From: a bacterium
Lineage (GTDB): Bacteria > UBP15 > UBA6099 > DSWB01
Direction: 5' to 3'
DNA length: 26,652 bases
Assembly (NCBI GenBank): GCA_020061125.1
Contig: JAGUYV010000335.1
Location: 1 to 26,652 of the forward strand
Below, piece by piece: positions 1,892 to 26,238 of the stretch (position 1 is its first letter; each line of letters starts with the position of its first letter). The position numbers and the translations under genes were made by a program. A model generated the notes under the pieces. That model searched no databases. It had not been told where the DNA came from and worked only from the letters and a program-made list of their open reading frames with translations.

Positions 1892-2260
1892 GTGCCTGCT
1901 GACTACCTTCCGATTCTGATCCACATTCTGGCCCTGGCCGGAGTGGCGGTTCTGATCATTGTTCTCTCGGCCCTGTTCGGCCCCAATAAGCCCTCTCCGG
2001 ACAAACTCGATGTGTACGAGTGCGGCGTGCCGCCTCTGGCGGGGTCGCGCGTGCGCATGTCGGTCAAGTTCTATGTGATCGCCGTGCTTTTCGTGCTGTT
2101 CGATGTGGAAGTGATCTTCATGTACCCGTGGGCGGTGATCTTCAAGCGGTTCCTTACACAAGCGCCGGTGGCCATCGCCCTGGCCATGGGGTTCTTCCTT
2201 TTCATTCTGGTGGTGGGCCTGTTGTTCGAGTGGAAGCGGGGTGCGCTGGAATGGGATTAG
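1892..2260 (+). CDS. nuoA: NADH-quinone oxidoreductase subunit A
   Basis: This 122-residue membrane subunit belongs to complex I. It helps seal the junction between the hydrophilic arm and the membrane arm near the quinone site. The start is GTG at 1892 with GAGG 9 nt upstream. The family signatures YECGVPP (residues 43-49) and [11 protein letters not shown] (70-80) are present. Three hydrophobic helices lie near 7-29, 58-78 and 92-114. Length is normal for the family. It is the first gene of the nuo operon, and its end overlaps nuoB by 10 nt, so the two are probably translationally coupled. Confidence 0.97.
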
Positions 2261-2745
2261 AGACATCCTTCGGGGATTCCTTCCTGACCACGACGCTTGA
2301 CGCGGCCATCAACTGGTGCCGCAAGTATTCGCTATGGCCCATGCCGTTCGGCGTGGCGTGCTGCGGCATCGAGATGATGTCCACCCTGGCCAGCCGCTAC
2401 GACATGGCGCGGTTCGGCGCGGAAGCCATCCGGTTCTCGCCCCGGCAGGCGGATATGCTGCTGGTGGCCGGCACCATCACTTACAAGATGGCCCCGGTTC
2501 TCAAGAAAATCTACACGCAGATGAGCGAGCCGAAGTGGGTCGTGGCCATGGGCGCGTGCGCGTCCTGCGGCGGCGTGTTCGACACTTATTCGACCCTGCA
2601 GGGCATTGACAAGATTATCCCGGTGGATGTGTACATTCCGGGGTGCCCGCCGCGGCCCGAGGGCGTTCTCCAGGCGCTCACCATTTTGCAGAACAAGATC
2701 ACCAATGACTCCGTGCTCAATGAAAGGTACAAAAACCACCCGTGA
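2251..2745 (+). CDS. nuoB: NADH-quinone oxidoreductase subunit B
   Basis: This 164-residue hydrophilic subunit carries cluster N2, the last iron-sulfur centre before quinone. The ligands are in place: tandem C37-C38, C103 and C132, in the contexts [19 protein letters not shown] and [10 protein letters not shown]. The reading frame is open well upstream, but the ATG at 2251 gives the normal family N-terminus ([10 protein letters not shown]...). It overlaps the end of nuoA by 10 nt and shares a GTGA junction with nuoC. Nothing about it departs from the family. Confidence 0.97.
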
Positions 2746-3287
2746 GCGGCGAGCATAAGACAGAACAGGAACCGCGGGAACCCAAACCGCCGGCCATCGC
2801 AGCCGAGCTGGTGGAGAAATTCGGCGCCGCGGACGAAGGCTTTTTCCGGGGAGACGCCACGGTGCGAGTGCCCGGGGACAAGCTGATCTCTGTGTTCGCG
2901 TATCTGAAGCGCGAGCGCAAACCCGCGTTCGCCATGCTTGTGGATGTCACGGCCATTGATCTTCTGGGCCTGCGCGAGCCGCGCTTTGATGTGGTGTACC
3001 ATTTCCTCAACATCCTGTCCCGCGAGCGCATCTGCATCAAGGTTGCGGTGGCCGAGGGCAAACAGATTCCCAGCGCCACGGCGTTCTGGAACAGCGCGAA
3101 CTGGGCCGAGCGCGAGTGCTACGACATGTACGGCATCGAATTCCGCGGACACCCTTATATGAAAAGACTCCTTATGTGGGAAGGCTTCGACGGTTGGCCC
3201 CTGCGCAAGGATTTCCCGCTCAAGGGCAAGGTGCCGCCCGATGAAAAATACGCCTTAAACGATGTGAGCCGGTTGAGACGGCTCTGA
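2742..3287 (+). CDS. nuoC: NADH-quinone oxidoreductase subunit C
   Basis: This 181-residue protein is the 30-kDa-type subunit of the peripheral arm of complex I. The family signature lies in its C-terminal half: [16 protein letters not shown], then [17 protein letters not shown]. It is separate from NuoD, unlike the fused NuoCD of Escherichia coli. The start is a GTG overlapping the nuoB stop (GTGA), which suggests translational coupling. The first 15 or so residues are charged ([16 protein letters not shown]) and probably disordered. A 49-nt spacer with a GC-rich hairpin separates it from nuoD. Confidence 0.96.
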
Positions 3288-3299
3288 TACACAGGAGCG

Positions 3300-3321
3300 C
3301 CGGGCCGGAACGAGGCCCCGG
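3300..3321 (+). other. Intercistronic hairpin between nuoC and nuoD
   Basis: CCGGGCC pairs with GGCCCCGG across a 7-nt loop, with one bulged C. There is no following T run, so it is not an intrinsic terminator. It could affect mRNA processing or stability between nuoC and nuoD. Smaller stems of the same kind lie before nuoH (GCGCC/GGCGC, 7972-7987) and nuoK (CGCGCC/GGCGCG, 10901-10923). Confidence 0.35.
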
Positions 3322-3336
3322 AAGCAGGACACACAC

Positions 3337-4527
3337 ATGCCGGAAAACGGACTGCGCACAGAGACCATGGTTCTGAACTTCGGGCCGTCGCACCCGGCGA
3401 CCCACGGAATCATCCATCTCAAACTCGAGCTCGACGGCGAGACCGTGGTCGGCTTCGTGGAAGAACCCACCATAGGCTATCTGCACCGCGGCATGGAAAA
3501 ACTGGCGGAGAACATGACCTTCCACCAGTGGATCACCATGACCGACCGTATGAACTATGTGTCCGCGCCTCTGAACAACATCGGCTACACCCTGGCCGTG
3601 GAAAAGCTGCTGGGCGTGGAAGCGCCCAAACGCGCGCAGTACATCCGGGTCATCCTGTCCGAGCTGTCGCGCATTGCGGACCACCTGGTGTGCGTGGGCA
3701 TCAACGCCGTGGACCTGGGCGCGTTCACCCCGTTCCTGTGGGGCTTCCAGCAGCGCGAAATGATCTACGACATCTTCGAGAAATACATCGGCGCGCGCCT
3801 CACCACCACCATCAGCCGCATCGGTGAGATGCGATACGATTTCGACAAAGACATCATTTATATGATCAAGTGCGTTCTGGATGAACTGGAGCCGGTGATC
3901 GCAGAATGGGATCAACTGCTGACCCGCAACCGGATCTGGATTGACAGGACGCGCGATGTGGGCGTGATTTCCAAAGAAGACGCCCTGGACTGGGGCTTCA
4001 CCGGTCCGTGCCTGCGCGCCGCGGGCGTGCCCTGGGACCTGCGCATCGAAGAGCCGTACCTGGTTTACAACGAGCTGGATTTCGACATCCCGGTCGGCAC
4101 CCAGGGCGATGTGTACGACCGCTACCTGGTGCGCGTGGAAGAGATCCGGCAGAGCATGAAAATCGTGCGCCAGGCCCTGGAAAAAATGCCCGAAGGCCCG
4201 ATCCGCATCGAGGACAGCACGGTGGTGCTGCCCAAACACGAAGAGATATACAACAAGATGGAATCCATGATCGCGGACTTCAAGTTCGTGATGCACGGCA
4301 TCCGCGCGCCCGAGGGCGAAGTGTACGGGCGCACCGAGGCCGCCAACGGCGAACTCGGGTTCTACATCGTGCACAAGGGCGGCCGAAGCCCGTACAAGAT
4401 CCATGTGCGCCCGCCGTGCTTCTACCTGTACAGCGCATTCGAGAAACTGATCAAGGGCCGCATGATCGCGGATGTGATTTCGGTCATGGGCAGCCTCAAT
4501 ATCATCGCCGGAGAACTGGACCGCTGA
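3337..4527 (+). CDS. nuoD: NADH-quinone oxidoreductase subunit D
   Basis: This 396-residue subunit is the 49-kDa-type protein, evolutionarily related to the large subunit of NiFe hydrogenases, and forms the quinone pocket with NuoB. Visible signatures include NFGPSHPATHGIIHLKLELDG near the start, the quinone-site HP motif within it, GYLHRGMEKLAE near residues 47-58, and SDISVMG-like RMIADVISVMGSLNIIAGELDR at the end. The ATG at 3337 has AGGA about 8 nt upstream. Length is normal. Its stop codon overlaps the nuoE start by one base (TGATG). Confidence 0.97.
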   Translation: MPENGLRTETMVLNFGPSHPATHGIIHLKLELDGETVVGFVEEPTIGYLHRGMEKLAENMTFHQWITMTDRMNYVSAPLNNIGYTLAVEKLLGVEAPKRAQYIRVILSELSRIADHLVCVGINAVDLGAFTPFLWGFQQREMIYDIFEKYIGARLTTTISRIGEMRYDFDKDIIYMIKCVLDELEPVIAEWDQLLTRNRIWIDRTRDVGVISKEDALDWGFTGPCLRAAGVPWDLRIEEPYLVYNELDFDIPVGTQGDVYDRYLVRVEEIRQSMKIVRQALEKMPEGPIRIEDSTVVLPKHEEIYNKMESMIADFKFVMHGIRAPEGEVYGRTEAANGELGFYIVHKGGRSPYKIHVRPPCFYLYSAFEKLIKGRMIADVISVMGSLNIIAGELDR

Positions 4528-4994
4528 TGGAATTTTCGCCGGAAGCCATGAAGGAAGTCGAGAAGCTGCTGTCGCGCTATCCGATCAAGGAAGCGGCGCT
4601 GCTGCCTCTGCTTCACATCGCCCAGCGCGAGTTCGGCCATGTTTCTCTCGAAGCCGAGGCCTATGTGGCGTCACTGCTGGACCTGCCCGCGCCCCGCGTG
4701 CACGGCGTGTCCACCTTCTACACCATGTACAACAAAAAGCCTGTGGGCAAGTACCATGTGCAGGTGTGCACCAACATCTCCTGCTCGCTCATGGGCGCGG
4801 AACATATTGTGAAATGCCTGGAAAAGAAACTCGGAATCAAGCCGGGGCAGACCACGGCGGACGGCAAATTCACCTTGAGCGAGGTGGAATGCCTGGGATC
4901 CTGCGGCACGGCCCCGGTCATGCAGATAAACGACGATTACTACGAAGATTTGACCGAAGCGAAAATTGATCAAATCCTGGGCGGACTCAAGTAA
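4527..4994 (+). CDS. nuoE: NADH-quinone oxidoreductase subunit E
   Basis: This 155-residue thioredoxin-fold [2Fe-2S] subunit belongs to the NADH dehydrogenase module. The N1a cluster ligands are C81 and C86 (CTNISC) and C122 and C126 (CLGSC). The ATG at 4527 overlaps the nuoD stop by one base. The open frame extends far upstream inside nuoD, but the normal family N-terminus begins at this ATG. With NuoF and NuoG it shows that this complex is the NADH-oxidising form and not the 11-subunit ferredoxin or F420 type. Confidence 0.96.
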   Translation: MEFSPEAMKEVEKLLSRYPIKEAALLPLLHIAQREFGHVSLEAEAYVASLLDLPAPRVHGVSTFYTMYNKKPVGKYHVQVCTNISCSLMGAEHIVKCLEKKLGIKPGQTTADGKFTLSEVECLGSCGTAPVMQINDDYYEDLTEAKIDQILGGLK

Positions 4995-5019
4995 GACGCC
5001 CTTGCGGAGCAGGCAGCAC

Positions 5020-6336
<1,317 letters not shown>

Positions 6337-6387
6337 ATACGAGCGGACCGCCTCGGCCAGAGCGCCGCGGCAAGGAAAGATCGAGCC

Positions 6388-7956
6388 ATGCCGAAAATCA
6401 CAATTGACGGCATTGAATGCGAAGTGGCGGACGGCCTCAATGTCATCGAGGCGGCCAAGACCATCGGCATCCATATCCCCCATTTCTGCTACCACCCGGC
6501 CTTGAGCCTCGTGGGCCAGTGCCGCATGTGCCTCATCGAACTGGACCCCATCCCCAAGCTCCAGACCGCTTGCTCCACTTTTGTCAAAGACGGCATGGTC
6601 ATCCGCACCAACACCGAAAAAGTCATCAAGGCCCGCAAGGCCATCATGGAGTTCCTGCTCATCAACCATCCCCTGGACTGCCCCGAGTGCGACCAGGCCG
6701 GCGAGTGCGACCTCCAGAATAATTCGTTCGAGTTCGGCCAGGGCTTCAGCCGGTTCGAGGAGCAGAAACGCACCTACAGCCGCGACATTCCCGTGGGCGA
6801 AAAACTCGTGCGCATCCAGGACCGCTGCATCCACTGCACGCGCTGCATCCGGTTCTTCCGCGAAATTGTCCAAAACGAAGTTATGACCTACCAGTGGCGC
6901 GGCAACAACACGGCCATGACCCCGCTCGAACAAGACGGCCGCCGCCTGGACACCAATTACTCGGGCAACATGCACGAACTCTGCCCCTGCGGCGCGCTCA
7001 CCCTCAAGGACTTCCGTTTCAAGACACGGCCCTGGAACCTTGCCAATACCGAAAGCGTATGCCCGCTGTGCAGCACGGGCTGCAACATTTTCATTGACCA
7101 CAAGCAGCGCAAGATTTTCCGCATCCGCCCCCGCGTGAACATGGATGTAAACACATGGTGGATCTGCGATTTCGGCCGCATTGATTTCGGATACGCGCAC
7201 AGCGAAACCCGCATCGCCGGGCCGCGCGTCAAGGGCGCGGACGCGGACTGGAAAACCGCGCTGGACACCGCCGCCGGGCTGCTCAAAACCACAGGCGCCA
7301 GCGCCACCGCCATCCTGTGCTCCGCGGACGCCACCAACGAGGAAGCCCTGCTCGTGAAGAAACTCGCGGCGGCCCTGGGCTGCTCCGCGGCCTCCCTGCC
7401 CGCTCCGGGCGTGGATCCGCTGGAAATGGAAGACCACCTGCTGCTGCGCGCGGACAAGGCCGCCAACACGCAGGGCCTCAAGGCTCTGGGCATCGTCCCG
7501 GACCCCGCGCTCGCGGACAAACTCTCCGGCGGCGCCATCAAAACCCTGCTGCTGATTAATCCTTTCAATAAACAGCTCGCCGCGGCGCTCGATGGCGTCC
7601 GTGACGCGGTTGCGAAAATCCCGAACCTCGTAGTTCTGGACCACAACGAAACGGACTTTTCCAAAGCCGCGGCCGTGGTTCTGCCGGGCGCGGTGTGGGC
7701 CGAGAAGAACGGCACCTTCACCAATTACAAGGGCCTGGTGCAGCGCATCAACCAGGCGTTCGCCCCGGCGGGCAAGGCGCGCGGGGACTTCGACATCCTG
7801 CTTGCTCTGGCCCAGGGCGCGGGCGCGGACATTGCCTGTAAAACCCACATTGACGCTTACAACGAAATCAGGGATGATCTGCTCAAGCTCGAAGCGCAGA
7901 TTAAAAAAGATATCGAAGCATTACAGAAAGCCGCCGCCGAGGCGGAAAAGGCATGA
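6388..7956 (+). CDS. nuoG: NADH-quinone oxidoreductase subunit G, short form
   Basis: This 522-residue subunit is the iron-sulfur wire of the NADH module. All cluster ligands can be seen: N1b (C34, C45, C48, C62), N5 (H94, C98, C101, C107), N4 (C147, C150, C153, C199) and the off-pathway N7 (C225, C228, C232, C260). The molybdopterin-oxidoreductase-like part that follows is much reduced, about 220 residues. It ends in an amphipathic tail (LLKLEAQIKKDIEALQKAAA) that could form a coiled coil. Full-length NuoG proteins are often 700-900 residues. A family-typical segment, AEKNGTFTNYKGLVQRINQAF (438-458), shows the shortening is by loss of internal domain parts and not by a simple stop. Confidence 0.95.
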   Translation: MPKITIDGIECEVADGLNVIEAAKTIGIHIPHFCYHPALSLVGQCRMCLIELDPIPKLQTACSTFVKDGMVIRTNTEKVIKARKAIMEFLLINHPLDCPECDQAGECDLQNNSFEFGQGFSRFEEQKRTYSRDIPVGEKLVRIQDRCIHCTRCIRFFREIVQNEVMTYQWRGNNTAMTPLEQDGRRLDTNYSGNMHELCPCGALTLKDFRFKTRPWNLANTESVCPLCSTGCNIFIDHKQRKIFRIRPRVNMDVNTWWICDFGRIDFGYAHSETRIAGPRVKGADADWKTALDTAAGLLKTTGASATAILCSADATNEEALLVKKLAAALGCSAASLPAPGVDPLEMEDHLLLRADKAANTQGLKALGIVPDPALADKLSGGAIKTLLLINPFNKQLAAALDGVRDAVAKIPNLVVLDHNETDFSKAAAVVLPGAVWAEKNGTFTNYKGLVQRINQAFAPAGKARGDFDILLALAQGAGADIACKTHIDAYNEIRDDLLKLEAQIKKDIEALQKAAAEAEKA

Positions 7957-8018
7957 CTGAAAATTAAAGGAGCGCCCGCGGAGGCGCGGCACACGCGGTT
8001 CCGCACAGAGGATAAAGC

Positions 8019-9116
8019 ATGGACAGCGCCGTTCTGGCAACCGTAATTCTTGCACTCATCAAAATCGCGCTCATTCTAGCGGTTCTCTTCACGGGCGTGG
8101 CTTATTATTCCCTGGCCGAGCGCAAGTTCAGCGCGTTCATGCAGGACCGGATCGGCCCCAACAGGTGCGGCCCATTCGCCCTGCTCCAGCCACTGGCCGA
8201 CGGCGTCAAGTTCTTCCTCAAGGAAGATGTGATCCCGCACCATGTGGACAAGGTTCTGTACCTTGCGGCCCCGGCCATGGCCATGATTCCCGCCATGGCG
8301 ACCATCGCCGTGGTCCCGTTCGCGGACCCCATCCCAGCGCCCGCTTCCGGGCTGTTCGCGTCCCTGGGCCAGATCCAGTTCCAGCTCGCGGACATCAATG
8401 TGGGCATGCTGTACATCTTCGCCGTGTCCGGCCTGGCCGTGTACGGCGTGGTGATCGCGGGCTGGGCGAGCAACAACAAATACGCCCTGCTCGGCTCCCT
8501 GCGCGCATCCGCGCAGATGATTTCCTATGAACTCACCCTGGGCTTGAGCGTGCTGGGCGTTTTCATGGTGTATGAAACCCTGCAGCTCGACGCCATCGTG
8601 GCCGCGCAGACCAGCTTCATTTCGTTCCTGCCCGTGGCCATCCCCAAGTGGGGCATCGTGGTGCAGCCGCTCGGGTTCCTGCTGTTTCTGATCGCAACCT
8701 TCGCGGAAACCAGCCGCCTGCCGTTCGACCTGCCCGAGGGCGAGGCCGAAATCGTGGCCGGTTATCATGTGGAATACGGCTCCATGAAATTCATGCTGTT
8801 CATGCTGGCCGAGTACTCGCACATGATCATCGCCAGCGCGGTGATCACCTGCCTGTTCCTGGGCGGCTGGAACCTGCCATGGGTGGACATGAGCAGCCTG
8901 CCTGCGGTTCAGCGCGTGGCCGCGCAACTGGCCGTGTTCACGGCCAAGGCCGGGTTCTTCGCGTTCCTGTTCATCTGGGTGCGCTGGACCCTGCCCCGGT
9001 TCCGCTACGACCAGCTCATGCGCCTGGGGTGGAAAGTGCTGCTGCCCCTGGCCATCGCCAACCTCGTGGCCACGGGCGCATTCTATGTTGTCAAGTACAC
9101 GGTTGGCATCGGCTGA
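8019..9116 (+). CDS. nuoH: NADH-quinone oxidoreductase subunit H
   Basis: This 365-residue membrane subunit links the quinone cavity to the proton-pumping arm. It has about eight hydrophobic helices. Signatures include AERKFSAFMQDRIGPNR near residues 34-50 and the acidic quinone-proximal loop ETSRLPFDLPEGEAEIVAGY near 231-250. The ATG at 8019 has a clear ribosome site (GAGGA with 6 nt spacing). The 62-nt gap after nuoG contains a short hairpin and no terminator, so transcription should continue. Confidence 0.97.
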   Translation: MDSAVLATVILALIKIALILAVLFTGVAYYSLAERKFSAFMQDRIGPNRCGPFALLQPLADGVKFFLKEDVIPHHVDKVLYLAAPAMAMIPAMATIAVVPFADPIPAPASGLFASLGQIQFQLADINVGMLYIFAVSGLAVYGVVIAGWASNNKYALLGSLRASAQMISYELTLGLSVLGVFMVYETLQLDAIVAAQTSFISFLPVAIPKWGIVVQPLGFLLFLIATFAETSRLPFDLPEGEAEIVAGYHVEYGSMKFMLFMLAEYSHMIIASAVITCLFLGGWNLPWVDMSSLPAVQRVAAQLAVFTAKAGFFAFLFIWVRWTLPRFRYDQLMRLGWKVLLPLAIANLVATGAFYVVKYTVGIG

Positions 9117-9151
9117 AACCGGCGAAGTCCGGGACTTCTGAAGGAAGCATT

Positions 9152-9664
9152 ATGGCGATTATCGTAAAAAAACCCGCGCCGCTGACTTTCTGGGAGCGCA
9201 TCTACCTGCCCGCCATTCTCAAGGGCCTGGGCATGACCATGCGCCACATGATTAAGACCCTTGCCGGCGGCGGCGTGACCATCCGCTATCCCGAGCAGCA
9301 CAAGCGCGTACCCAACAACTATCGCGCCCTGCATGTCATGCCCACATGGGAAGACGGCCACATCAAATGCGTGGCGTGCGAAATGTGCTCCACAGTGTGC
9401 CCGGCGAACGCCATCACGGTTCACGCCGAGGAAGACGAAAATCCCGAAATCGAAAAGCGCGCGGCTTTTTATGAAATTGACGAACTGCGGTGCATCTTCT
9501 GCGGGTTCTGCGAGGAAGTCTGCCCGCGCGACGCCATTCATCTGACCAAGAATTACGAGTTTGTGACCGATAACCGCGAAGGGTTCCTGTATGGCATGGA
9601 CCGGCTGACCAAGACAGGGCGGCTGGTGAGCGAACTGGAAGCCAAGGAGAACAAAGACAGGTAA
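9152..9664 (+). CDS. nuoI: NADH-quinone oxidoreductase subunit I
   Basis: This 170-residue ferredoxin-like subunit holds two [4Fe-4S] clusters, N6a and N6b, and passes electrons to NuoB. Ligand sets are C73/C76/C79 with C83 and its partner set C114/C117/C120 with C124 (CVACEMCSTVCP and CIFCGFCEEVCP). An amphipathic N-terminal helix, residues 11-36, probably lies on the membrane. The ATG at 9152 has AAGGA 6-7 nt upstream. The open frame continues upstream through nuoH in another frame and is not coding there. Confidence 0.97.
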   Translation: MAIIVKKPAPLTFWERIYLPAILKGLGMTMRHMIKTLAGGGVTIRYPEQHKRVPNNYRALHVMPTWEDGHIKCVACEMCSTVCPANAITVHAEEDENPEIEKRAAFYEIDELRCIFCGFCEEVCPRDAIHLTKNYEFVTDNREGFLYGMDRLTKTGRLVSELEAKENKDR

Positions 9665-9667
9665 TCC

Positions 9668-10900
9668 ATGGATATTTCGCTGATGCAGATCATCTTCTGG
9701 GCGCTCGCCGCGTGCGCGGTGGTTGCGGCGCTGGGCGTGGTACTGTCCCGCAACGCCATTTACAGCGCCCTGTGCCTGGTGGGAACCATGTTCTGCCTGG
9801 CGGGCCTTTTCGTGCTGCTCAACGCGCAGTTCCTGGCCGCGGCCCAGGTCATCGTTTACGCGGGCGCGGTCATGGTCCTATTCCTGTTCGCCATCATGCT
9901 GCTGCAGGCCGGGCAGGCGCCGGGCGAGGAACGCTTCACGGTTCAGGCCCTTCTGGGCTGGCTCTTCGGCATCATCCTGGCCGTGCAGATCGGCGCCCTG
10001 GTGTTCGTGGCATTCAAGGGCCAGTCCGCCGCGCACACAAGCAAAACCGGCGGCCCGGTCCTGTCCGCTTCCCAGGCCATCGTGCCGGGCGCAAGCGCAA
10101 CCGTCACCCTCAAGGACTCTTACAAGAACGCGGACTCCAAAGTCAAAGATACCGTTGAAATCGAATTCATCGCCGGTCCAACCAATGAGGCCGAAACCAT
10201 AACCCTCACCGAAACCGGGCCGGACACCGCGGTGTTCGCCGGAACTGCGGCCACACTGGCCGACGCCCTTCCCGGAAAGCCCGAGGACGGCGCATTCCAT
10301 GTGCAGCCCGGATACAAAATCACCGCCAATTACGAGGATACGCGCACGGGCAACTACCGCACCGCGGTTATCCGCGTGCGCGACCATGTTATTGAAATGC
10401 CCGCAGCCGTGACGCCCGATGCGGACCTGAATGTCTCCGTGAGTTCGCACGCGGCCAACACCGGCCCGGCGGCGGACACAGTCAAAATCGTGGTGACCAA
10501 CAAGCCGTCCGGCGAACGCGAGGCTGTGGTTCTGACCGAAACCGGACCGGCCACGGGCGTGTTCACCGGAGCGCTCAAAACCAAACACGGCACAGTGCCC
10601 GGCAGGAACAACGACGGCGTCATGATCGCCCGGGGCGGCGATACGCTCACGGCCCTGTACCAGCCCGGAGACGGGGACAAAATCGAGGCCGCGCTCACGG
10701 ACGGCGAACTGGGCGAGGACGAGCAGATCCCCGAGGCCGCAGCCAGCGCGGAAGTCGCGTTCGGCAACACCGAATCCGTGGCCCTGGCCCTGTTCGCCAA
10801 ATACCTGTATCCCTTCGAAGCCATAGCGGTGCTGCTGCTGATCGCCATGATCGGCGCGGTGCTGATTGCAAAAAAGAAACTGAAGAAGGCAAACGACTGA
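9668..10900 (+). CDS. nuoJ: NADH-quinone oxidoreductase subunit J with two inserted beta-repeat domains
   Basis: This membrane subunit has 410 residues, about 240 more than is usual. Helices 1-4 (about 5-25, 28-51, 55-79, 93-115) and the last helix (about 372-400, with the family motif LYPFEAIAVLLLIAMIGAVLIA) are normal NuoJ. Between helices 4 and 5 lies a hydrophilic insert, about residues 118-367. It contains two copies of a beta-rich repeat, about 138-240 and 247-338. Both carry TETGPxTxVFxG (181-192 and 290-301), preceded by a DTVxI strand and followed by an aromatic YxxxxxG-type strand. Known NuoJ topology puts this loop on the outer (periplasmic) side, and the basic C-terminus (AKKKLKKAND) agrees. 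The reading frame is continuous with no frameshift. The insert's function is unknown. Confidence 0.95.
   Translation: MDISLMQIIFWALAACAVVAALGVVLSRNAIYSALCLVGTMFCLAGLFVLLNAQFLAAAQVIVYAGAVMVLFLFAIMLLQAGQAPGEERFTVQALLGWLFGIILAVQIGALVFVAFKGQSAAHTSKTGGPVLSASQAIVPGASATVTLKDSYKNADSKVKDTVEIEFIAGPTNEAETITLTETGPDTAVFAGTAATLADALPGKPEDGAFHVQPGYKITANYEDTRTGNYRTAVIRVRDHVIEMPAAVTPDADLNVSVSSHAANTGPAADTVKIVVTNKPSGEREAVVLTETGPATGVFTGALKTKHGTVPGRNNDGVMIARGGDTLTALYQPGDGDKIEAALTDGELGEDEQIPEAAASAEVAFGNTESVALALFAKYLYPFEAIAVLLLIAMIGAVLIAKKKLKKAND
10079..10681 (+). repeat. Two-copy Ig-like repeat inside nuoJ
   Basis: Copy 1 is encoded by about 10079-10387 and copy 2 by about 10406-10681. The TETGP motifs are 109 codons apart. 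The two copies match best around CTGACCGAAACCGG-like bases at 10208 and 10535. The copies have diverged, so this is an old duplication or the arrival of a two-domain unit. Repeats of this look occur in large bacterial and archaeal surface proteins. Confidence 0.75.
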
Positions 10901-10933
10901 CGCGCCCGGAACCGCAAGGCGCGGGAGACTGAC

Positions 10934-11236
10934 ATGATCGGTGTATCACACTATCTGGCGTTGAGCGCCATCCTGTTCAGCATCGGCGTGGCGGGCGTGC
11001 TCACGCGCCGCAACGCGCTCATTATTTTCATGTCCATCGAACTGATGCTCAACGCCGTGAACCTGTCGTTCATCGCATTCTCGCGCCATCTCGGGGATGT
11101 GGACGGGCAGGTGTTCGTGCTGTTCGTCATGGCCGTGGCCGCCGCGGAAGTGGCCGTGGGCCTGGCCATCATCATTTCCATTTACAGGAAACGCGGCACC
11201 GCGAACATTGATAAAGTCAACATCATGAAATGGTGA
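10934..11236 (+). CDS. nuoK: NADH-quinone oxidoreductase subunit K
   Basis: This 100-residue, three-helix subunit lies in the proton path between NuoJ and NuoN. The family motif [13 protein letters not shown] carries the conserved membrane glutamate near residue 36. A second one lies in [12 protein letters not shown] near residue 72. The ATG at 10934 has GGGAG about 6 nt upstream. Length is typical. A small GC-rich hairpin lies in the gap after nuoJ. Confidence 0.96.
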
Positions 11237-11240
11237 CGAT

Positions 11241-13283
11241 TTGAAACAGTACATCTGGCTCATACCGCTCATTCCGCTGCTCGGGGTCATTTTCAACGGC
11301 CTGTTCGGGCGCGCGTTCGACAAGTCCACCCGCTCCGTGGGCGGCCTGTTCGCCTGCGGCACGGTGCTGGCCAGTTTTCTGATGTCCCTCAAGGCCGTCG
11401 TCGAGCTGTCGCAGATGCCCGAAGGCGCGCGCCTCATCGTGAACCGCGTGTTCCCGTGGATCGTGGCCGGGAATTTCGAGGTCTGGTTCTCGGTGGCGCT
11501 CGACCCGCTGTCCGCGGTCATGATTCTTGTGGTCACGGGCGTGGGCTTTCTCATTCATGTCTACTCTCTGGGCTACATGTCCCATGACGAAGGCTACACC
11601 CGCTTTTTCGCATACCTGAACCTGTTCATGTTCTCCATGCTGACCCTGGTGCTGGCGGACAGCTTCCTGCTGCTGTTCGTGGGCTGGGAGCTTGTGGGCC
11701 TGTGCTCGTACCTGCTCATCGGGTTCTGGCTGCACAAGGACAGCGCGGCCAACGCGGGCAAGAAAGCGTTCATCGTGAACCGCGTGGGCGACTTCGGCGT
11801 GCTGTGCGCCATGTTCGCCATCTTCGGCGTGTTCGGCACTCTGGATTTCCAGAAAATCATCGCTATGGTCGAGCACAACGCCACGGTCACGCCGTGGTTC
11901 CTGGGCAAGGCGCTGCCCGTGCTGGATGTGCTGCACACAGCCACGCCCCTGTTCGGCATTACTTTGATTACAGTAATTTGCCTGGCCCTGTTCCTGGGCG
12001 CAACCGGCAAATCCGCGCAGATTCCGCTGTATGTGTGGCTGCCCGACGCCATGGAAGGCCCCACGCCGGTGAGCGCGCTCATCCACGCCGCCACCATGGT
12101 CACCGCGGGCGTGTACATGGTCTGCCGAACCAGCGTGCTGTTCGCTCTGGCGCCCCAGGCGCTCATGGTGGTCGCGATCGTGGGCTGCGCCACCGCCATT
12201 TTCTCCGCCACCATCGGCGTGGCGCAATACGACATCAAGCGCGTGCTGGCCTACTCCACGGTGAGCCAGCTCGGGTTCATGTTCCTGGCCTGCGGCGTGG
12301 GCGCATACGCAGTGGCTGTATTCCACCTGGCCACGCACGCTTTCTTCAAGGCCCTGCTCTTCCTCGGGTCCGGCTCGGTGATTCACGGCATGCACGAGGA
12401 GCAGGACATGCGCCACATGGGCGGGCTGGCCGGCAAGATGAAAATCACCTTCGCCACCATGCTTATCGGCACCCTGGCCATCGCGGGCATCCCGTTCTTC
12501 GCCGGGTTCTTTTCCAAGGACGAAATTCTGTGGAAGGCGTTCAGCACGCCGCTTGGCGAGCAGTTCGGCAGGACCCTGTGGATGGTCGGCACCGCGGCCG
12601 CGTTCCTCACCGCCTTCTACATGTTCCGCCTTATTTACATGACTTTCTCGGGCAAGCCGCGCTGGCATGAGCACACGCACCCGCACGAATCCCCGTTGAG
12701 CATGACCGGACCGCTCATGATTCTGGCCCTGTTCTCCATCATCGGCGGATGGATCGGCACGCCCCCGGCCTGGCCCGTGTGGCAGAACCATTCCTTCTAT
12801 GAATGGCTGCACCCCATGTTCTCGCAGGCCGAGCACATTCTGACCACCATGTCCCTGGCGCACCCGCACCACATTGACCACCATGCGGCGCACGCGCTCG
12901 AAACGCAGCTCATGTGGGGTTCCGTGGTCGTGGCCCTGGCCGGCATCGCCATCGCCACTGTCTTCTACTTCCGCACAAACCGCCACGAAGCCGTGCGCCG
13001 CATCCTCGCGCCCGTGCATTTCGTGCTGAACCGCAAATACTTCGTGGACGAAATTTACACCTGGACCATCGTGGAGCCGGGCAAGTGGTTCTCGTCCCTG
13101 TTCCTGTGGAAAATCGCGGACGCGGGCATCATTGACGGATTCGTCAACGCCCTGGCCGGGCTTACCGGCGCCGTGGGCGGCGTGGTGCGCCGCATCCAGA
13201 CCGGCGTGGTTCTGAACTACGCCCTCGTGTTCGTGCTCGGCGTCATCGCCATTCTCTACTTCGTGGTGTGGTCAGGAGTGTAA
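11241..13283 (+). CDS. nuoL: NADH-quinone oxidoreductase subunit L
   Basis: This 680-residue antiporter-like subunit is the distal proton pump. The core signature GWELVGLCSYLLIGFW (about residues 148-163) contains the key glutamate, and LPDAMEGPTPVSALIHAATMV follows near 266-286. The C-terminal region after about 480 contains the segment expected to form the long lateral helix and the last transmembrane helix. The start is TTG at 11241, supported by GGTGA directly upstream, overlapping the nuoK stop. The next in-frame ATG is deep inside the protein, so the TTG is needed for a normal N-terminus (MKQYIWLIPLIPLLG). Confidence 0.96.
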   Translation: MKQYIWLIPLIPLLGVIFNGLFGRAFDKSTRSVGGLFACGTVLASFLMSLKAVVELSQMPEGARLIVNRVFPWIVAGNFEVWFSVALDPLSAVMILVVTGVGFLIHVYSLGYMSHDEGYTRFFAYLNLFMFSMLTLVLADSFLLLFVGWELVGLCSYLLIGFWLHKDSAANAGKKAFIVNRVGDFGVLCAMFAIFGVFGTLDFQKIIAMVEHNATVTPWFLGKALPVLDVLHTATPLFGITLITVICLALFLGATGKSAQIPLYVWLPDAMEGPTPVSALIHAATMVTAGVYMVCRTSVLFALAPQALMVVAIVGCATAIFSATIGVAQYDIKRVLAYSTVSQLGFMFLACGVGAYAVAVFHLATHAFFKALLFLGSGSVIHGMHEEQDMRHMGGLAGKMKITFATMLIGTLAIAGIPFFAGFFSKDEILWKAFSTPLGEQFGRTLWMVGTAAAFLTAFYMFRLIYMTFSGKPRWHEHTHPHESPLSMTGPLMILALFSIIGGWIGTPPAWPVWQNHSFYEWLHPMFSQAEHILTTMSLAHPHHIDHHAAHALETQLMWGSVVVALAGIAIATVFYFRTNRHEAVRRILAPVHFVLNRKYFVDEIYTWTIVEPGKWFSSLFLWKIADAGIIDGFVNALAGLTGAVGGVVRRIQTGVVLNYALVFVLGVIAILYFVVWSGV

Positions 13284-13287
13284 TGCT

Positions 13288-14889
13288 TTGAATCAACTGA
13301 ACCTGCCGATTCTCTCGCTGCTCATTTTCTCGCCGCTCATCGGCGTGCTGTTCATCCTGTTCTGCGGACGCAAGAGCCACACCATGATCCGCAACATCGC
13401 CATGGCGTCGTCCCTGGGCACCCTGGTCATTTCCTGCGTCATTCTCTACACCTTCAAATCGCACACATCCCTGATGCAGTTCGAGGAAAATGTGCCGTGG
13501 ATCGCCCAGTGGGGCGTGAACTACCACCTTGGCCTGGACGGCATCAGCGTGCTCCTGGTGTTCCTCACCGCCCTGCTCACCCCAATCTGTATCTTGAGTT
13601 CCTGGAACTACATCTCCAAACGTGTCAAGGAATTCCACATCTTCTTCCTCATGCTCGAAACCGCCATGCTCGGGGCGTTTCTGGCCCTGGACCTGGTTCT
13701 GTTCTATGTGTTTTGGGAAGCCATGCTCATCCCCATGTACTTCATCATCGGCGTGTGGGGCGGGCCGCGGCGCATCTATGCGGCCATCAAGTTCTTCCTG
13801 TTCACATTCGTGGGCAGCGTGTTCATGCTGCTCGCCATCATGACCCTGTACTTCATCCACAAAGACATAACCGGCGTGGCCTCCTTCGATCTCATGGAGA
13901 TCAGCAAGATCATCGTGGCGCCGCACCTGCAGATGTGGCTGTTCGCGGCCTTCGGCCTGGCGTTCGCCATCAAGGTGCCCATGTTCCCGTTCCACACATG
14001 GCTGCCGGATGCGCATGTGGAAGCGCCCACCCCCGGATCGGTGATCCTGGCCGGCGTGCTCCTGAAAATGGGCACTTACGGGTTCATGCGCTTCGCCATG
14101 CCCCTGTTCCCGTACGCGGTCATGGAGTACATGCCCTACATCAGCGCCCTGGCCGTGATTGGCATCATCTACGGCGCGCTGGTGGCCATGGTGCAGCCGG
14201 ACATGAAGAAACTCGTGGCCTACTCGTCCGTGTCCCACCTGGGTTTCGTGATGCTGGGCCTGTTCGCGCTCAACGCCCAGGGCGTGCAGGGCGCGCTGCT
14301 GCAGATGATCAACCACGGCTTCAGCACGGGCGCGCTGTTCCTCATCGTGGGCATGCTCTATGAACGCCGCCACACGCGCATGATCGCCGACTACGGCGGC
14401 ATCGCAAAAGTCACGCCCATGCTGTTCGTGTTCTTCCTCGTGGTCACGCTCTCGTCCATCGGGCTGCCGGGCCTGAACGGGTTCGTGGGCGAAGTGCTCA
14501 TCATGGTGGGCGCGTGGTCCAACCAGTTCATGGACCGCTCCATTTATTTCACCATCGCAGCCGCCACGGGGGTGATCCTCGCGGCCATCTACATGCTCTG
14601 GATGTTCCAGCGCGTGATGTACGGCCCGGTCAAGAACGAGAAAAATCAGAATCTCGAAGATCTTTCACCCCGCGAAATTGCGGTGCTCGCGCCCATGATC
14701 CTGTTCATCGTCTGGATCGGCGTGTATTCGCAGCCGTTCATGAAAACCATGGAAGCCTCGGTGCGCGACTTCAATGTGCAGATCGAGGCCCGTTTCAAGG
14801 CGTCTCTAACGGTTCCCAAAGGCGTCAAGGCAATAGTCATTTCTGCGCCGCAGCAGCAACTTCCGGCAGAGGAGAAGGTCACAGAGTAA
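13288..14889 (+). CDS. nuoM: NADH-quinone oxidoreductase subunit M
   Basis: This 533-residue antiporter-like proton-pumping subunit has about 14 hydrophobic helices. Conserved segments are FYVFWEAMLIPMYFIIGVWGG (glutamate of the pump near residue 144), FPFHTWLPDAHVEAPTPGSV and YSSVSHLGFVMLG. The start is TTG at 13288 with AGGAG 9 nt upstream. An ATG between them (13283-13285) is followed by only one codon before a TGA that overlaps the TTG, so it cannot be the start. Its end overlaps nuoN by one base (TAATG). Confidence 0.96.
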   Translation: MNQLNLPILSLLIFSPLIGVLFILFCGRKSHTMIRNIAMASSLGTLVISCVILYTFKSHTSLMQFEENVPWIAQWGVNYHLGLDGISVLLVFLTALLTPICILSSWNYISKRVKEFHIFFLMLETAMLGAFLALDLVLFYVFWEAMLIPMYFIIGVWGGPRRIYAAIKFFLFTFVGSVFMLLAIMTLYFIHKDITGVASFDLMEISKIIVAPHLQMWLFAAFGLAFAIKVPMFPFHTWLPDAHVEAPTPGSVILAGVLLKMGTYGFMRFAMPLFPYAVMEYMPYISALAVIGIIYGALVAMVQPDMKKLVAYSSVSHLGFVMLGLFALNAQGVQGALLQMINHGFSTGALFLIVGMLYERRHTRMIADYGGIAKVTPMLFVFFLVVTLSSIGLPGLNGFVGEVLIMVGAWSNQFMDRSIYFTIAAATGVILAAIYMLWMFQRVMYGPVKNEKNQNLEDLSPREIAVLAPMILFIVWIGVYSQPFMKTMEASVRDFNVQIEARFKASLTVPKGVKAIVISAPQQQLPAEEKVTE

Positions 14890-16376
14890 TGCCCAGCCTG
14901 TCCGACATACAATTCTACCTGCCCGTGAGCATGGATTTCGTGATGATCATCCCGCAGTTGGCGATCCTCGCTTTCATGCTCGGCATCCTGCTTCTGGACC
15001 TGCTGTTCAGCGACGACGAAACGCGCTCCACCGCGGCCATCGCCGTGCTGGGCCTGGCCTGCGCCGGGTTCTACTCTCTGCGCGTGCTCTGGGGATCTTC
15101 AAGCTACGCCTTCAACCATCTGCTTCTCATTGACAATTACGGGTTGTTCTTCAACGCCCTGTTCTGCGGCGGCGCGATTCTGGCCGTGCTCATCAGCGCG
15201 CGCTATATCGAGCGCGAAGGCATGGCCCTGGGCGAGTACTATGTAATTCTTCTGGGCGCTGTTCTGGGCATGATGATCATGGCCTCGGCCGGCAGCCTCA
15301 TCACCGTGTTCGTGGGCATCGAAACCCTGTCCATTTCCCTGTACGCCCTGGCCGGATTCAACCGCGAAAAACCAGTGTCTGGCGAAGCCGCCATCAAGTA
15401 CCTGCTGCTCGGGTCGTTCGCCACCGGGTTCCTGCTCTACGGCATCGCGCTGATTTACGGAACCACGGGCAGTTTCGACATCATCACCATCGGCGACCAC
15501 ATCAAGGCGCACGGCGGGCCGGACAAGGTTATGCTGCTCGGCGCCGTGCTCATCCTCATCGGGTTCTCGTTCAAGGCGTCCCTGGCCCCGTTCCACATGT
15601 GGGCGCCGGATGTGTACCAGGGCGCGCCCACGCCCATCGCGGGCTTCATGTCCACGGCCGCCAAGGCTGCGGCCTTCGCCGTGCTGTTCCGCGTGCTGTC
15701 CATCGCCATGCCCGGCCTGCACAAGCACTGGCACGCCCTGCTTTATGTCATCGCCATCATCACCATGATCATCGGCAACTTGAGCGCGCTCGGCCAGGGC
15801 AACATCAAGCGCATGCTGGCCTATTCGAGCATCGCGCACGCGGGCTATCTGGTCATCGCCATCCTGGCCGCGGGCCGGGGCGAAGCGCTCGGCGCGCAAA
15901 GCATCCTGTTCTATCTCATCGCCTACACGCTCATGAACATGGGCGCATTCGGTGTGCTCTCCGCGCTGGCGCGCCGCAACCAGAACAATGAAACCGTGGA
16001 CAGCTTCGCGGGCATCGGATACCGCCATCCCGCTTACGCCGCGGCCATGACCCTGTTCCTGGTGTCCCTGGCCGGCGTGCCCCCCACCGCGGGATTCTTC
16101 GGCAAGTTCTACATCTTCCTGTCGGCCGTGCGCGCGGACATGATTCCGCTGGCCATCATCGGCGTGCTGAACGCCGTGGTCTCGGTGTTCTACTATCTGC
16201 GCGTTGTCGTGGCCATGTACATGCAGGAACCGGGCGAGGAAATCGAGCGCGACAAAATCCTGTGGTGGCCCGCGGCCCTGGCCATCGGCATTTCCGCGGC
16301 GGGCATCATCGCCATGGGCCTGCTCCCCGGCCGGTTCATCAACCTGGCCGCAAGCGCCATCCTCTCCGGCATCTGA
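14889..16376 (+). CDS. nuoN: NADH-quinone oxidoreductase subunit N
   Basis: This 495-residue antiporter-like proton-pumping subunit sits next to NuoK. Conserved segments include GIETLSISLYALAGF (pump glutamate), FKASLAPFHMWAPDVYQGAPTP and YSSIAHAGYLVIA. The ATG at 14889 overlaps the nuoM stop by one base. It is the last gene of the operon. The next gene is convergent, and no clear intrinsic terminator with a T run was found in the 59-bp gap. Confidence 0.96.
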   Translation: MPSLSDIQFYLPVSMDFVMIIPQLAILAFMLGILLLDLLFSDDETRSTAAIAVLGLACAGFYSLRVLWGSSSYAFNHLLLIDNYGLFFNALFCGGAILAVLISARYIEREGMALGEYYVILLGAVLGMMIMASAGSLITVFVGIETLSISLYALAGFNREKPVSGEAAIKYLLLGSFATGFLLYGIALIYGTTGSFDIITIGDHIKAHGGPDKVMLLGAVLILIGFSFKASLAPFHMWAPDVYQGAPTPIAGFMSTAAKAAAFAVLFRVLSIAMPGLHKHWHALLYVIAIITMIIGNLSALGQGNIKRMLAYSSIAHAGYLVIAILAAGRGEALGAQSILFYLIAYTLMNMGAFGVLSALARRNQNNETVDSFAGIGYRHPAYAAAMTLFLVSLAGVPPTAGFFGKFYIFLSAVRADMIPLAIIGVLNAVVSVFYYLRVVVAMYMQEPGEEIERDKILWWPAALAIGISAAGIIAMGLLPGRFINLAASAILSGI

Positions 16377-19274: not shown

Positions 19275-19392
<118 letters not shown>

Positions 19393-19445
19393 AAAAAAGC
19401 AAAGGATGTAAAGGTACAGGGCGATGCGGCCGGAAAGGGCCGACC

Positions 19446-19503
19446 CCTGAAAAGTGCACAGTGTGTTGTATGCGAAACGCGCGGTTTCGAACGAGCAATT
19501 GGT
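19446..19503 (-). other. 3' half of the pre-23S processing stem
   Basis: This trailer segment is complementary to the leader segment at 22564-22618. On the plus strand it reads CTGAAAAGTGCACAGTGTG..., and the 23S leader on the minus strand reads CTTGAAAAGTGCATAGTGTG.... In the transcript the two pair into a long stem that brings the 23S ends together, the standard substrate for RNase III. Confidence 0.75.
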
Positions 19504-19516
19504 ATTAAGTCAAAAT

Positions 19517-22536
<3,020 letters not shown>

Positions 22537-24012: not shown

Positions 24013-25104
24013 TCAATTGAGTCTGTCTAAAATTGACCTCATGAAAAGAACTACTTCATCTTTATATGTGTAAATTTCTGGATATTTCACCGCAGCCGCT
24101 TCTTTACCTTTTCCCAAACTATTTACTCCCACAATGTTTTGTAACTTCGTTCGAAAATTATCCATGAATCCAAGTTTCTCAAAATTTTTAAAATTGAAAT
24201 ATACAGAAGTATTTTCAAGCCCAAACAGCGCCATGGATTTTTTACTATCACAGATTTGAAGTGATTTAGTTTTGAATACCAGTTTGCATTTCCCTTGCGC
24301 CTCGTACTCCTTTGCTATTCTGAGCAACTCTAACCGTAAAGACCTATCTGGTTCTTGAACAACCAAATCAACCCAATCATCTTTTTGAAGTATTTGCCTT
24401 TGCTGAGAAGAAAAGGTTGTGAGCAAACATGCTGCTCTAACTGTTCCTGTTATAAATGTGGCTGACGAAACCTTGCCATCAGTATTGGATTTTGCTTTGA
24501 ATCGTGAAAACTCAACACATGCTATCGGGAATTTGTTTTTGCCTTTAGAGCGAATCGTTCTAAGATAATCCGTTAGGATAAGTGCGCGTTGCTCTAAATT
24601 GTCTCCAGCAATCACCAATAGATAGTCGTTCAGAGAAAATTCGATTTTCTTTTTTAAGGAATCAAGTGTTAGCTCAACATGATCTCCCTTTGGAGCTTGT
24701 TTTTTTAACTTTCTGTTGAATATTTTGACAATCTCATTTTCATTATCCGTCTGATAGTAATTAAGATATGCATCTCTAATGTCCTCATATCCCCACTGTT
24801 GGACTCGTGATGCATATTCCATTACCTGAGCACAAACTTCACGTCTTGCTTGAGGATTTTCAACCAATTTACATTCGACTATGATTAGTTTCCCTGTATC
24901 ATCAAGGAAAAGGAGGTCTATGTTGCCTATTTCCGTTTTTACTTCACGACCTATCGGAATTGCCAAACATGCTTTTGGGTTCAATTCTGAAATGGGAAAA
25001 GATTCGGGATGTTGTTCGATACAGGTCTGCAAATCATATTCGTTTTCGAATTTGTCTATTTCAATTTGTATATCACCCTTGATGTCAGTGGTAAAGAGAT
25101 TCAT
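24013..25104 (-). CDS. PD-(D/E)XK nuclease-like protein (DUF91/NucS-like look)
   Basis: This 363-residue protein begins at the ATG at 25104, with GAGGAG 5 nt upstream. Residues 53-103 carry a nuclease core: TEIGNIDLLFLDD with D63, a hairpin, then LIIVECKLV with E77 and K79, and Q93 in a helix (CAQVMEYASRV). The D-x13-E-x-K spacing fits the PD-(D/E)XK superfamily, and the opening helix (DLQTCIEQHPESF) is typical of predicted nucleases of this type. The C-terminal 220 residues are unrecognised and may bind a target. It is the last gene of an AT-rich three-gene unit, 2 nt after the zinc-binding gene. A role in defence against foreign DNA is possible but not shown. Confidence 0.7.
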   Translation of the reverse strand: MNLFTTDIKGDIQIEIDKFENEYDLQTCIEQHPESFPISELNPKACLAIPIGREVKTEIGNIDLLFLDDTGKLIIVECKLVENPQARREVCAQVMEYASRVQQWGYEDIRDAYLNYYQTDNENEIVKIFNRKLKKQAPKGDHVELTLDSLKKKIEFSLNDYLLVIAGDNLEQRALILTDYLRTIRSKGKNKFPIACVEFSRFKAKSNTDGKVSSATFITGTVRAACLLTTFSSQQRQILQKDDWVDLVVQEPDRSLRLELLRIAKEYEAQGKCKLVFKTKSLQICDSKKSMALFGLENTSVYFNFKNFEKLGFMDNFRTKLQNIVGVNSLGKGKEAAAVKYPEIYTYKDEVVLFMRSILDRLN

Positions 25105-25106
25105 TT

Positions 25107-25583
25107 TTACTCCTCGCCCCCATAAGATGGGAAAAGTGATTTGATTTCAGCAAATATCCTATAATCTGCATTTACATCACATGTTGCACATCGGCAATCA
25201 ATTATCATGGTTGACAAATTCGCTTGGTATTCTTTATCGAACCAATCATTCTTCTCTCCTTGCAGAAATCGAAGTGACCCTGTAAATGATACATCAACAT
25301 TGTACTGCATATTTCCACACTCACACGCAATAGGCTCAACTTCAAAGCTTGTACCATTTGAGGGCAAGAAATGTCGCCCCATTGACTCAATGACTTCAGT
25401 GGGTGCCTTTTCGCCGCATTCCACACAAGTCATTTGGACTTGAAATCGCTTCTGCGTAACCTTGTCGACGCGTTCTTGCTCTGTTGGACTGAAAACCATG
25501 TTCATGGTTATAGACCCATTTATGGTACCACGAAATTCCCGACCGCCACAGGAACAAAGGTATGGTTTGTAATCAGTATCCAT
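25107..25583 (-). CDS. Duplicated zinc-binding protein of unknown function
   Basis: This 158-residue protein begins at the ATG at 25583, chosen for AAGGA 6 nt upstream. An earlier in-frame ATG at 25643 would overlap the upstream gene. Cysteines form two similar halves: C10-x-C12 with C53-x2-C56, and C87-x-C89 with C132-x2-C135 (plus C130). Each half runs CxCG, then a strand-rich stretch with I/V-x-x-S-x-T spacing, then CxxC, so the protein looks like two zinc-ribbon-like domains in tandem. It is not recognised as a named family. Its place between an unknown protein and a nuclease suggests a shared task. Confidence 0.7.
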   Translation of the reverse strand: MDTDYKPYLCSCGGREFRGTINGSITMNMVFSPTEQERVDKVTQKRFQVQMTCVECGEKAPTEVIESMGRHFLPSNGTSFEVEPIACECGNMQYNVDVSFTGSLRFLQGEKNDWFDKEYQANLSTMIIDCRCATCDVNADYRIFAEIKSLFPSYGGEE

Positions 25584-25608
25584 CAGTATTCCTTTGCATG
25601 TATTGATT

Positions 25609-26238
25609 TCACATTCCTGGTCGTTCCTTTTTCTTCTGTTCAATCAGTTTTTCAAGCTCATGCATAAAATCATCTGAAGCCCCTTCGTTTCTTAACATCT
25701 CAACATTGGACTCGATAGTCTGTATCAACCTTTCTCTGGATTCTTTACAAGGGTCGTCTGGAAGACGGATTTCCTTGCCGTTGATTTCATTGATTTTTTC
25801 AAGAAGAGAGTCATCACTGGCACTGAAAGGGTCATATTTATTTTTTAATTGCTCGTTTTCCCCATTGAGCGGTTGTTCTGAAAATATGTTGTCTGATTGC
25901 ATTTTCAGCATTCCGGACTGGATGAGGCTATAGGTCATCTTGTCTGCAAAGTGGCCGACAATCCACTTATCCCGGTCATCAGGGTCGAAAATCAAATTGA
26001 AATCCTGCTCGCTGAATATTTCCATACACTCTTCAAGCTCATCCCCAGGACTCATCTGATAGGATTTATCATCTTGTTGGATTTTGAGGGAATACTGGTA
26101 TGCATTCAACCTTTCCGAATCGAAGTTGCCTGAAAACAATGGCAGCACAAGGTCAATATCATCTTCAGGGCAACACAGGAAGGCAATTTCGTAAAGTCCC
26201 GGTTTCTGACATTTCATTTCGAGCATCTGGCATATCAT
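25609..26238 (-). CDS. Acidic protein of unknown function, first gene of the nuclease cassette
   Basis: This 209-residue protein begins at the ATG at 26238, with GGGAG 7 nt upstream. It is acidic, with Asp/Glu clusters at 25-29, 65-73 and 85-90, and has a charged helical C-terminal region (about 140-205, ending EKLIEQKKKERPGM). No signal peptide or membrane helix is seen. I do not recognise a family. It is followed after 25 nt by the zinc-binding gene and lies in the same AT-rich transcription unit. Confidence 0.7.
   Translation of the reverse strand: MICQMLEMKCQKPGLYEIAFLCCPEDDIDLVLPLFSGNFDSERLNAYQYSLKIQQDDKSYQMSPGDELEECMEIFSEQDFNLIFDPDDRDKWIVGHFADKMTYSLIQSGMLKMQSDNIFSEQPLNGENEQLKNKYDPFSASDDSLLEKINEINGKEIRLPDDPCKESRERLIQTIESNVEMLRNEGASDDFMHELEKLIEQKKKERPGM

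Follow-up and report, generated by a model that had tools for sequence, protein, structure and literature searches.

A NuoJ subunit of bacterial complex I carrying two predicted Ig-like repeats related to surface proteins

Few membrane proteins are more conserved than the core subunits of complex I, which in bacteria are described as exposing short loops and hairpins on their outer side. The NuoJ encoded in the window (the whole stretch of DNA analysed, 26,652 nucleotides) departs from this pattern, with an insert of about 250 residues that is predicted to fold as two Ig-like domains. By predicted structure and by sequence, the nearest solved relatives of the insert are domains 8-9 of the S-layer protein of Nitrosopumilus maritimus (NmSLP), and giant secreted proteins of the window genome carry the same repeat. 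As far as we found, a NuoJ with two surface-protein Ig domains is undescribed in the literature searched, and no description of any periplasmic domain on NuoJ was found there.

The nuoJ gene and the extent of its insert

The nuoJ frame occupies 9668-10900 on the forward strand, 410 codons from an ATG start without interruption, which confirms the intact 410-residue frame of the preliminary description. The translated frame matched PF00499 well above the cut-off (135 bits against 33.2; overall E=1.9e-39), its product has five transmembrane (TM) helices followed by a basic inner C-terminus (KKKLKKAND), and the gene is flanked by nuoI upstream and nuoK downstream in a complete nuoA-N cluster. Judged from its sequence, the gene is a real nuoJ. 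Hydropathy placed the five TM segments at residues 8-26, 33-51, 61-79, 98-116 and 383-401, and AlphaFold2 (AF2) placed helices at 5-26, 30-50, 55-81 and 93-117.

In a six-frame search the PF00499 match fell into two pieces, profile positions 2-103 at 9728-10030 and positions 102-146 at 10733-10867, because about 250 residues split it at the TM4-TM5 loop. This agrees with the insertion first proposed between TM4 and TM5 and places it at residues 118-367. The protein is collinear with the NuoJ of G001, a relative from the same phylum, until TM4 ends, and the collinearity resumes at AFGNTES and extends into TM5. The TM3 and TM5 motifs of the window NuoJ are 312 residues apart; among 80 measurable NuoJ the median spacing was 76, the upper quartile 80 and the runner-up 224. 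The features are as follows:

1892-16376 (+): nuoA-N cluster, containing nuoJ; from open reading frames, Pfam matches for NuoA, B, G and I, and homology of NuoE, F and H-N to relatives
9668-10900 (+): nuoJ, complete open reading frame between nuoI and nuoK; PF00499 in two stretches, E=1.9e-39
9668-10021 (+): TM helices 1-4, residues 1-118, with the conserved TM3 motif VYAGAVMVLF; from hydropathy, PF00499 positions 2-103 and AF2
10019-10768 (+): insert in the TM4-TM5 loop, residues 118-367; missing from the 174-aa NuoJ of G001, where the loop has about 13 residues
10046-10384 (+): predicted Ig-like domain 1, residues 127-239; AF2 pLDDT about 81-94 from residue 131, VIA-align Z 12.8 to NmSLP
10208-10243 (+): motif TETGPDTAVFAG in domain 1; from sequence
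10385-10705 (+): predicted Ig-like domain 2, residues 240-346; repeat profile, AF2 pLDDT about 83-94 to residue 330, then lower
10535-10570 (+): motif TETGPATGVFTG in domain 2; from sequence
10706-10768 (+): acidic linker to the membrane, residues 347-367; AF2 pLDDT about 55-72
10769-10897 (+): TM5 and basic cytoplasmic C-terminus; PF00499 positions 102-146, hydropathy 383-401

The insert consists of two tandem repeats of about 108 residues each (HMM envelopes at residues 134-239 and 244-346), 34% identical to each other (E=3e-16). Both carry the TETGPxTxVFxG pattern noted for the two domains in the preliminary description, as TETGPDTAVFAG and TETGPATGVFTG. Each repeat also retains 17 of the 25 positions that show at least 75% conservation across the remaining repeats. 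The bacterial repeats have an acidic D-x-D-x-N motif, of which the first D and the N survive in repeat 1 and the N only in repeat 2. Metal binding via this DxDLN motif was rejected, as the motif is mostly lost in both NuoJ repeats. Pfam recognised no domain in the insert, and neither Pfam nor NCBIfam gave anything credible; a catalytic or ligand-binding domain was rejected on that ground.

Other features of the window were recorded in passing. NuoG (6388-7956), at 522 aa, is short, and its molybdopterin-type domain is truncated. Genes for 23S and 5S rRNA lie at 19275-22536 on the reverse strand; the 4.1 kb upstream of them, which reach the window end, gave no 16S match, and the window has no tRNA, so that the rRNA genes look unlinked. 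Also on the reverse strand are a BNR-repeat (sialidase-like) protein at 561-1781, its Pfam match weak and below the cut-off, and three adjacent or overlapping genes at 24013-26238, the first weakly NucS-like (a nuclease) and the other two without a Pfam family.

Predicted fold and relatives of the repeats

The AlphaFold2 model of full NuoJ, based on an alignment of 36 rows, had a mean pLDDT of 78.6; both insert domains reached about 81-94, and TM4 and the linkers were poorly resolved. Predicted alone, the insert gave a pLDDT of 85.4 and a pTM of 0.76, with the same top matches (Z 12.0-12.3). The best PDB match of the NuoJ model by Foldseek was 8c8k (E=7.4e-13). By VIA-align, domain 1 superposed on NmSLP residues 1364-1498 with Z 12.8 and rmsd 2.5 Å over 110 residues; the two domains together gave Z 12.4 over 212-214 residues at an rmsd of about 11.5-12 Å, so the domains match NmSLP singly and the angle between them differs. 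The top NmSLP chains scored Z 12.0-12.8, the next unrelated Ig chains at most 9.5. TM1-3 matched solved NuoJ/NdhG chains (Z about 10).

A profile of 36 repeats, both NuoJ repeats included, had one convincing match among solved proteins, again NmSLP (8c8k, E=2.9e-11), a protein described as an array of ten Ig-like domains (PMC11153153). Domains 8 and 9 of NmSLP (8c8k-8c8r) share with the NuoJ insert the Ig-like fold, the TETG motifs and the tandem layout; NmSLP, however, is an archaeal surface lattice protein, whereas the NuoJ repeats sit inside an inner-membrane respiratory subunit. We claim kinship in fold and sequence; we claim no function of the D-x-D-x-N motif, nor do we claim that NuoJ is an S-layer protein. 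Two of the checks suggested at the outset, structure prediction of NuoJ alone and a profile search of the insert, gave a confidently predicted pair of Ig domains and matches both to NmSLP and to giant secreted proteins of the same genome. These predictions support the idea that the loop holds a folded beta module of some size with kin among surface proteins.

The repeat profile found 16 matches in the window genome, two in NuoJ and 14 in large open reading frames. Contig C244 has six of these copies, in a 2984-aa protein; C321 has two, in a 1647-aa protein cut by the contig end; and C401 has two. The remaining four, all weak, lie in a 3643-codon open frame on C476. All carriers readable from their start (C244, C321 and C401) open with a signal-peptide-like segment and have DUF11, Big or SdrD-type domains; among the repeat carriers found, NuoJ alone has NuoJ-type membrane helices. 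The repeats of the giant proteins belong to the same family as those of NuoJ, with up to 45% identity to them; in NuoJ, unlike in the giant proteins, the DxDLN motif is mostly gone. The C244 protein (L114, 4430-13381) carries six TETGP repeats with Big_13, Big_6, DUF11 and SdrD_B domains, and its C-terminus ends in phenylalanine, possibly that of an outer-membrane barrel. A 2967-aa protein matching it is encoded in G005, a relative from the same order; this counterpart (L115) belongs to another family of the order.

Membrane side of the insert

Five TM segments and a basic C-terminal tail put the TM4-TM5 loop on the outer side. In solved complex I the TM3-4 loop of ND6 lies between the peripheral and membrane arms on the inner side (PMC10212512), which puts the TM4-5 loop outside. 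An Omp85/BamA-type protein (E=4.8e-41), a diderm marker, is encoded in the genome, so a periplasm is expected. The insert is thus likely to lie in the periplasm of a diderm cell; hydropathy, the basic C-terminus and the ND6 topology all agree with the periplasmic facing that had been proposed from the known topology of NuoJ.

Occurrence and age of the insert

The window protein shares with the NuoJ/ND6/Nqo10 family (PF00499) its five TM helices, the conserved TM3 and its position in the nuo cluster; it differs in having about 250 more residues, predicted to be folded, in the periplasmic TM4-TM5 loop. Seven genomes made up the phylum survey (G000, G001 with its short NuoJ, and five from one family). 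The five of one family gave no PF00499 match, and G001 was the sole sampled phylum relative with nuoJ; its protein, 174 aa with a TM4-TM5 loop of about 13 residues, has no insert. No other frame matching both NuoJ and the insert was found among 386 genomes; the PF00499 side of this survey rests on the matches listed, which a very divergent long-loop NuoJ could escape, and the genomes compared all lie outside the window's own family. A whole-NuoJ query against named genomes found no relative, and searches in other phyla, with two to three genomes each, gave no insert matches. One Gemmataceae NuoJ, among 98 distinct NuoJ from fetched loci, also has a large insert in the TM4-TM5 loop, but this consists of about 140 charged residues, does not match the Ig repeats and is unrelated. 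That protein (L089, 6741-7922; 394 aa) has an N-terminal extension as well. The nuo cluster of G001 (L118, 6075-15421) holds E, F, H and J-N, with nuoG and nuoI not in place; its NuoL is 764 aa, as against 680 in the window, with a low-complexity segment in its later part.

In a tree of 36 repeats, both NuoJ repeats clustered with repeats from their own order (support 81/92, at an open fork). Their branches are long, 2.08 and 1.18 changes per site against a tree median of 0.23, and their exact placement is unsure. In-place duplication of a single repeat was rejected because the two are not sisters in the tree, with the reservation that these long rows are placed unsurely. The long branches, the 17 of 25 conserved positions kept and the lack of a stop codon together indicate long retention of a foldable domain. 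The sequences favour an ancient capture with altered constraint over a recent accident, and the donor of the repeats may be missing from the incomplete assembly. The preliminary description named as a refutation that relatives lack the insert and that it is a one-off chimera: G001 does lack it and no second case appeared among the 386 genomes (for PF00499, the matches listed), but repeats that have diverged for so long speak against a chimera of recent origin, and a recent chimera or an assembly error is unlikely.

Proposed role and alternatives

We propose that two tandem Ig-like repeats of surface-protein type, like those in the giant secreted proteins of this lineage, were captured at the TM4-TM5 loop, a permissive site facing the periplasm. 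The pair would fold outside the membrane arm, on the periplasmic sole of complex I, and act there as a structural module without catalytic function. It would most likely contact proteins, bracing the junction of NuoJ, NuoH, NuoA and NuoK or the heel of the membrane arm, or docking a periplasmic partner. We give about an even chance to the captured repeats now serving as such a bracing or docking module. Among the grounds for this reading are that both halves of NuoJ are recognised within a nuo cluster and that the insert is predicted with confidence to fold; we infer that full-length NuoJ is present in assembled complex I, that the insert contributes positively there and that it makes these contacts. 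Against it, no second NuoJ with the insert is known from the genomes searched, most NuoJ, that of G001 included, do without one, TM4 and the linkers are poorly modelled, and staying folded would also be required of a harmless passenger.

Mitochondrial complex I offers a comparison. The TMH4-5 loop of ND6 adjoins NDUFA1; NDUFA1, NDUFS5 and NDUFA13 touch ND6 on that side, and NDUFA1 joins two assembly modules (PMC8762328). These eukaryotic accessory proteins of the intermembrane-space side, like the NuoJ insert, add outer-side mass at the same spot of the complex (PMC8762328), but they are separate subunits and not Ig domains, and the likeness is positional only.

The close rival to a structural module is a neutral passenger: repeats that landed in an insertion-accepting loop and are useless, merely soluble enough for NuoJ to fold. 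We consider this somewhat less probable. The loop is variable in length, as the unrelated Gemmataceae insert illustrates, and relaxed constraint is consistent with the long branches and with the lost acidic D-x-D motif. Paracoccus complex I shows variation in the TMH4-5 loop, and 44 residues are disordered in a periplasmic insertion of its ND5 (PMC11522691); added outer mass is tolerated there without obvious need, and the passenger reading therefore stays strong. Weighing the other way, about 250 residues have stayed open across a very long divergence with core conserved positions retained in both repeats, and deletion could trim so large a useless insert from a core subunit.

A third possibility is that complex I is fixed or clustered in the envelope by the Ig pair, through binding to peptidoglycan, an outer-membrane protein or the cell's own giant Ig proteins. 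That related repeats belong to S-layer and giant surface proteins favours such a tether, but the insert has no known wall-binding domain (Pfam is silent), Ig repeats are commonly spacers, and the connection between NuoJ and the giant proteins is one of shared descent alone; we regard it as improbable. The broader claim that complex I is attached through the Ig domains of NuoJ to the wall, the outer membrane, giant surface proteins or another respiratory complex is a little less improbable, though still doubtful. Finally, an artefact in which assembly or binning joined nuoJ to a surface-protein gene is scarcely credible: although the assembly is fragmented (513 contigs, 79% complete), both junctions are in frame within one expected loop, with nuoI upstream and nuoK downstream; the longest exact match between the insert region and the tested repeat contigs is 19 bases, too short for a repeat-driven misjoin; and the GC3 of the insert (0.78) is inside the range of the nuo genes (0.74-0.88), while also close to that of the C244 repeats (0.795).

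Significance

The position of TM4 differs between mammalian and other complex I structures, and TM4 moves in the mammalian deactive state; the TM4-TM5 loop is thus a plausible handle for bracing or tethering the complex. Attachment through NuoJ, if true, would mean a respiratory enzyme positioned by one of its core subunits, of which we found no description in the literature searched. The insert is real and well delimited, and the surprise is moderate, since a single genome among those searched shows it. A folded two-domain module from the surface-protein repertoire at this site would show that the TM4-TM5 loop of NuoJ tolerates large folded cargo, and the insert would be a concrete case of complex I acquiring accessory mass by domain capture, not by new subunits.
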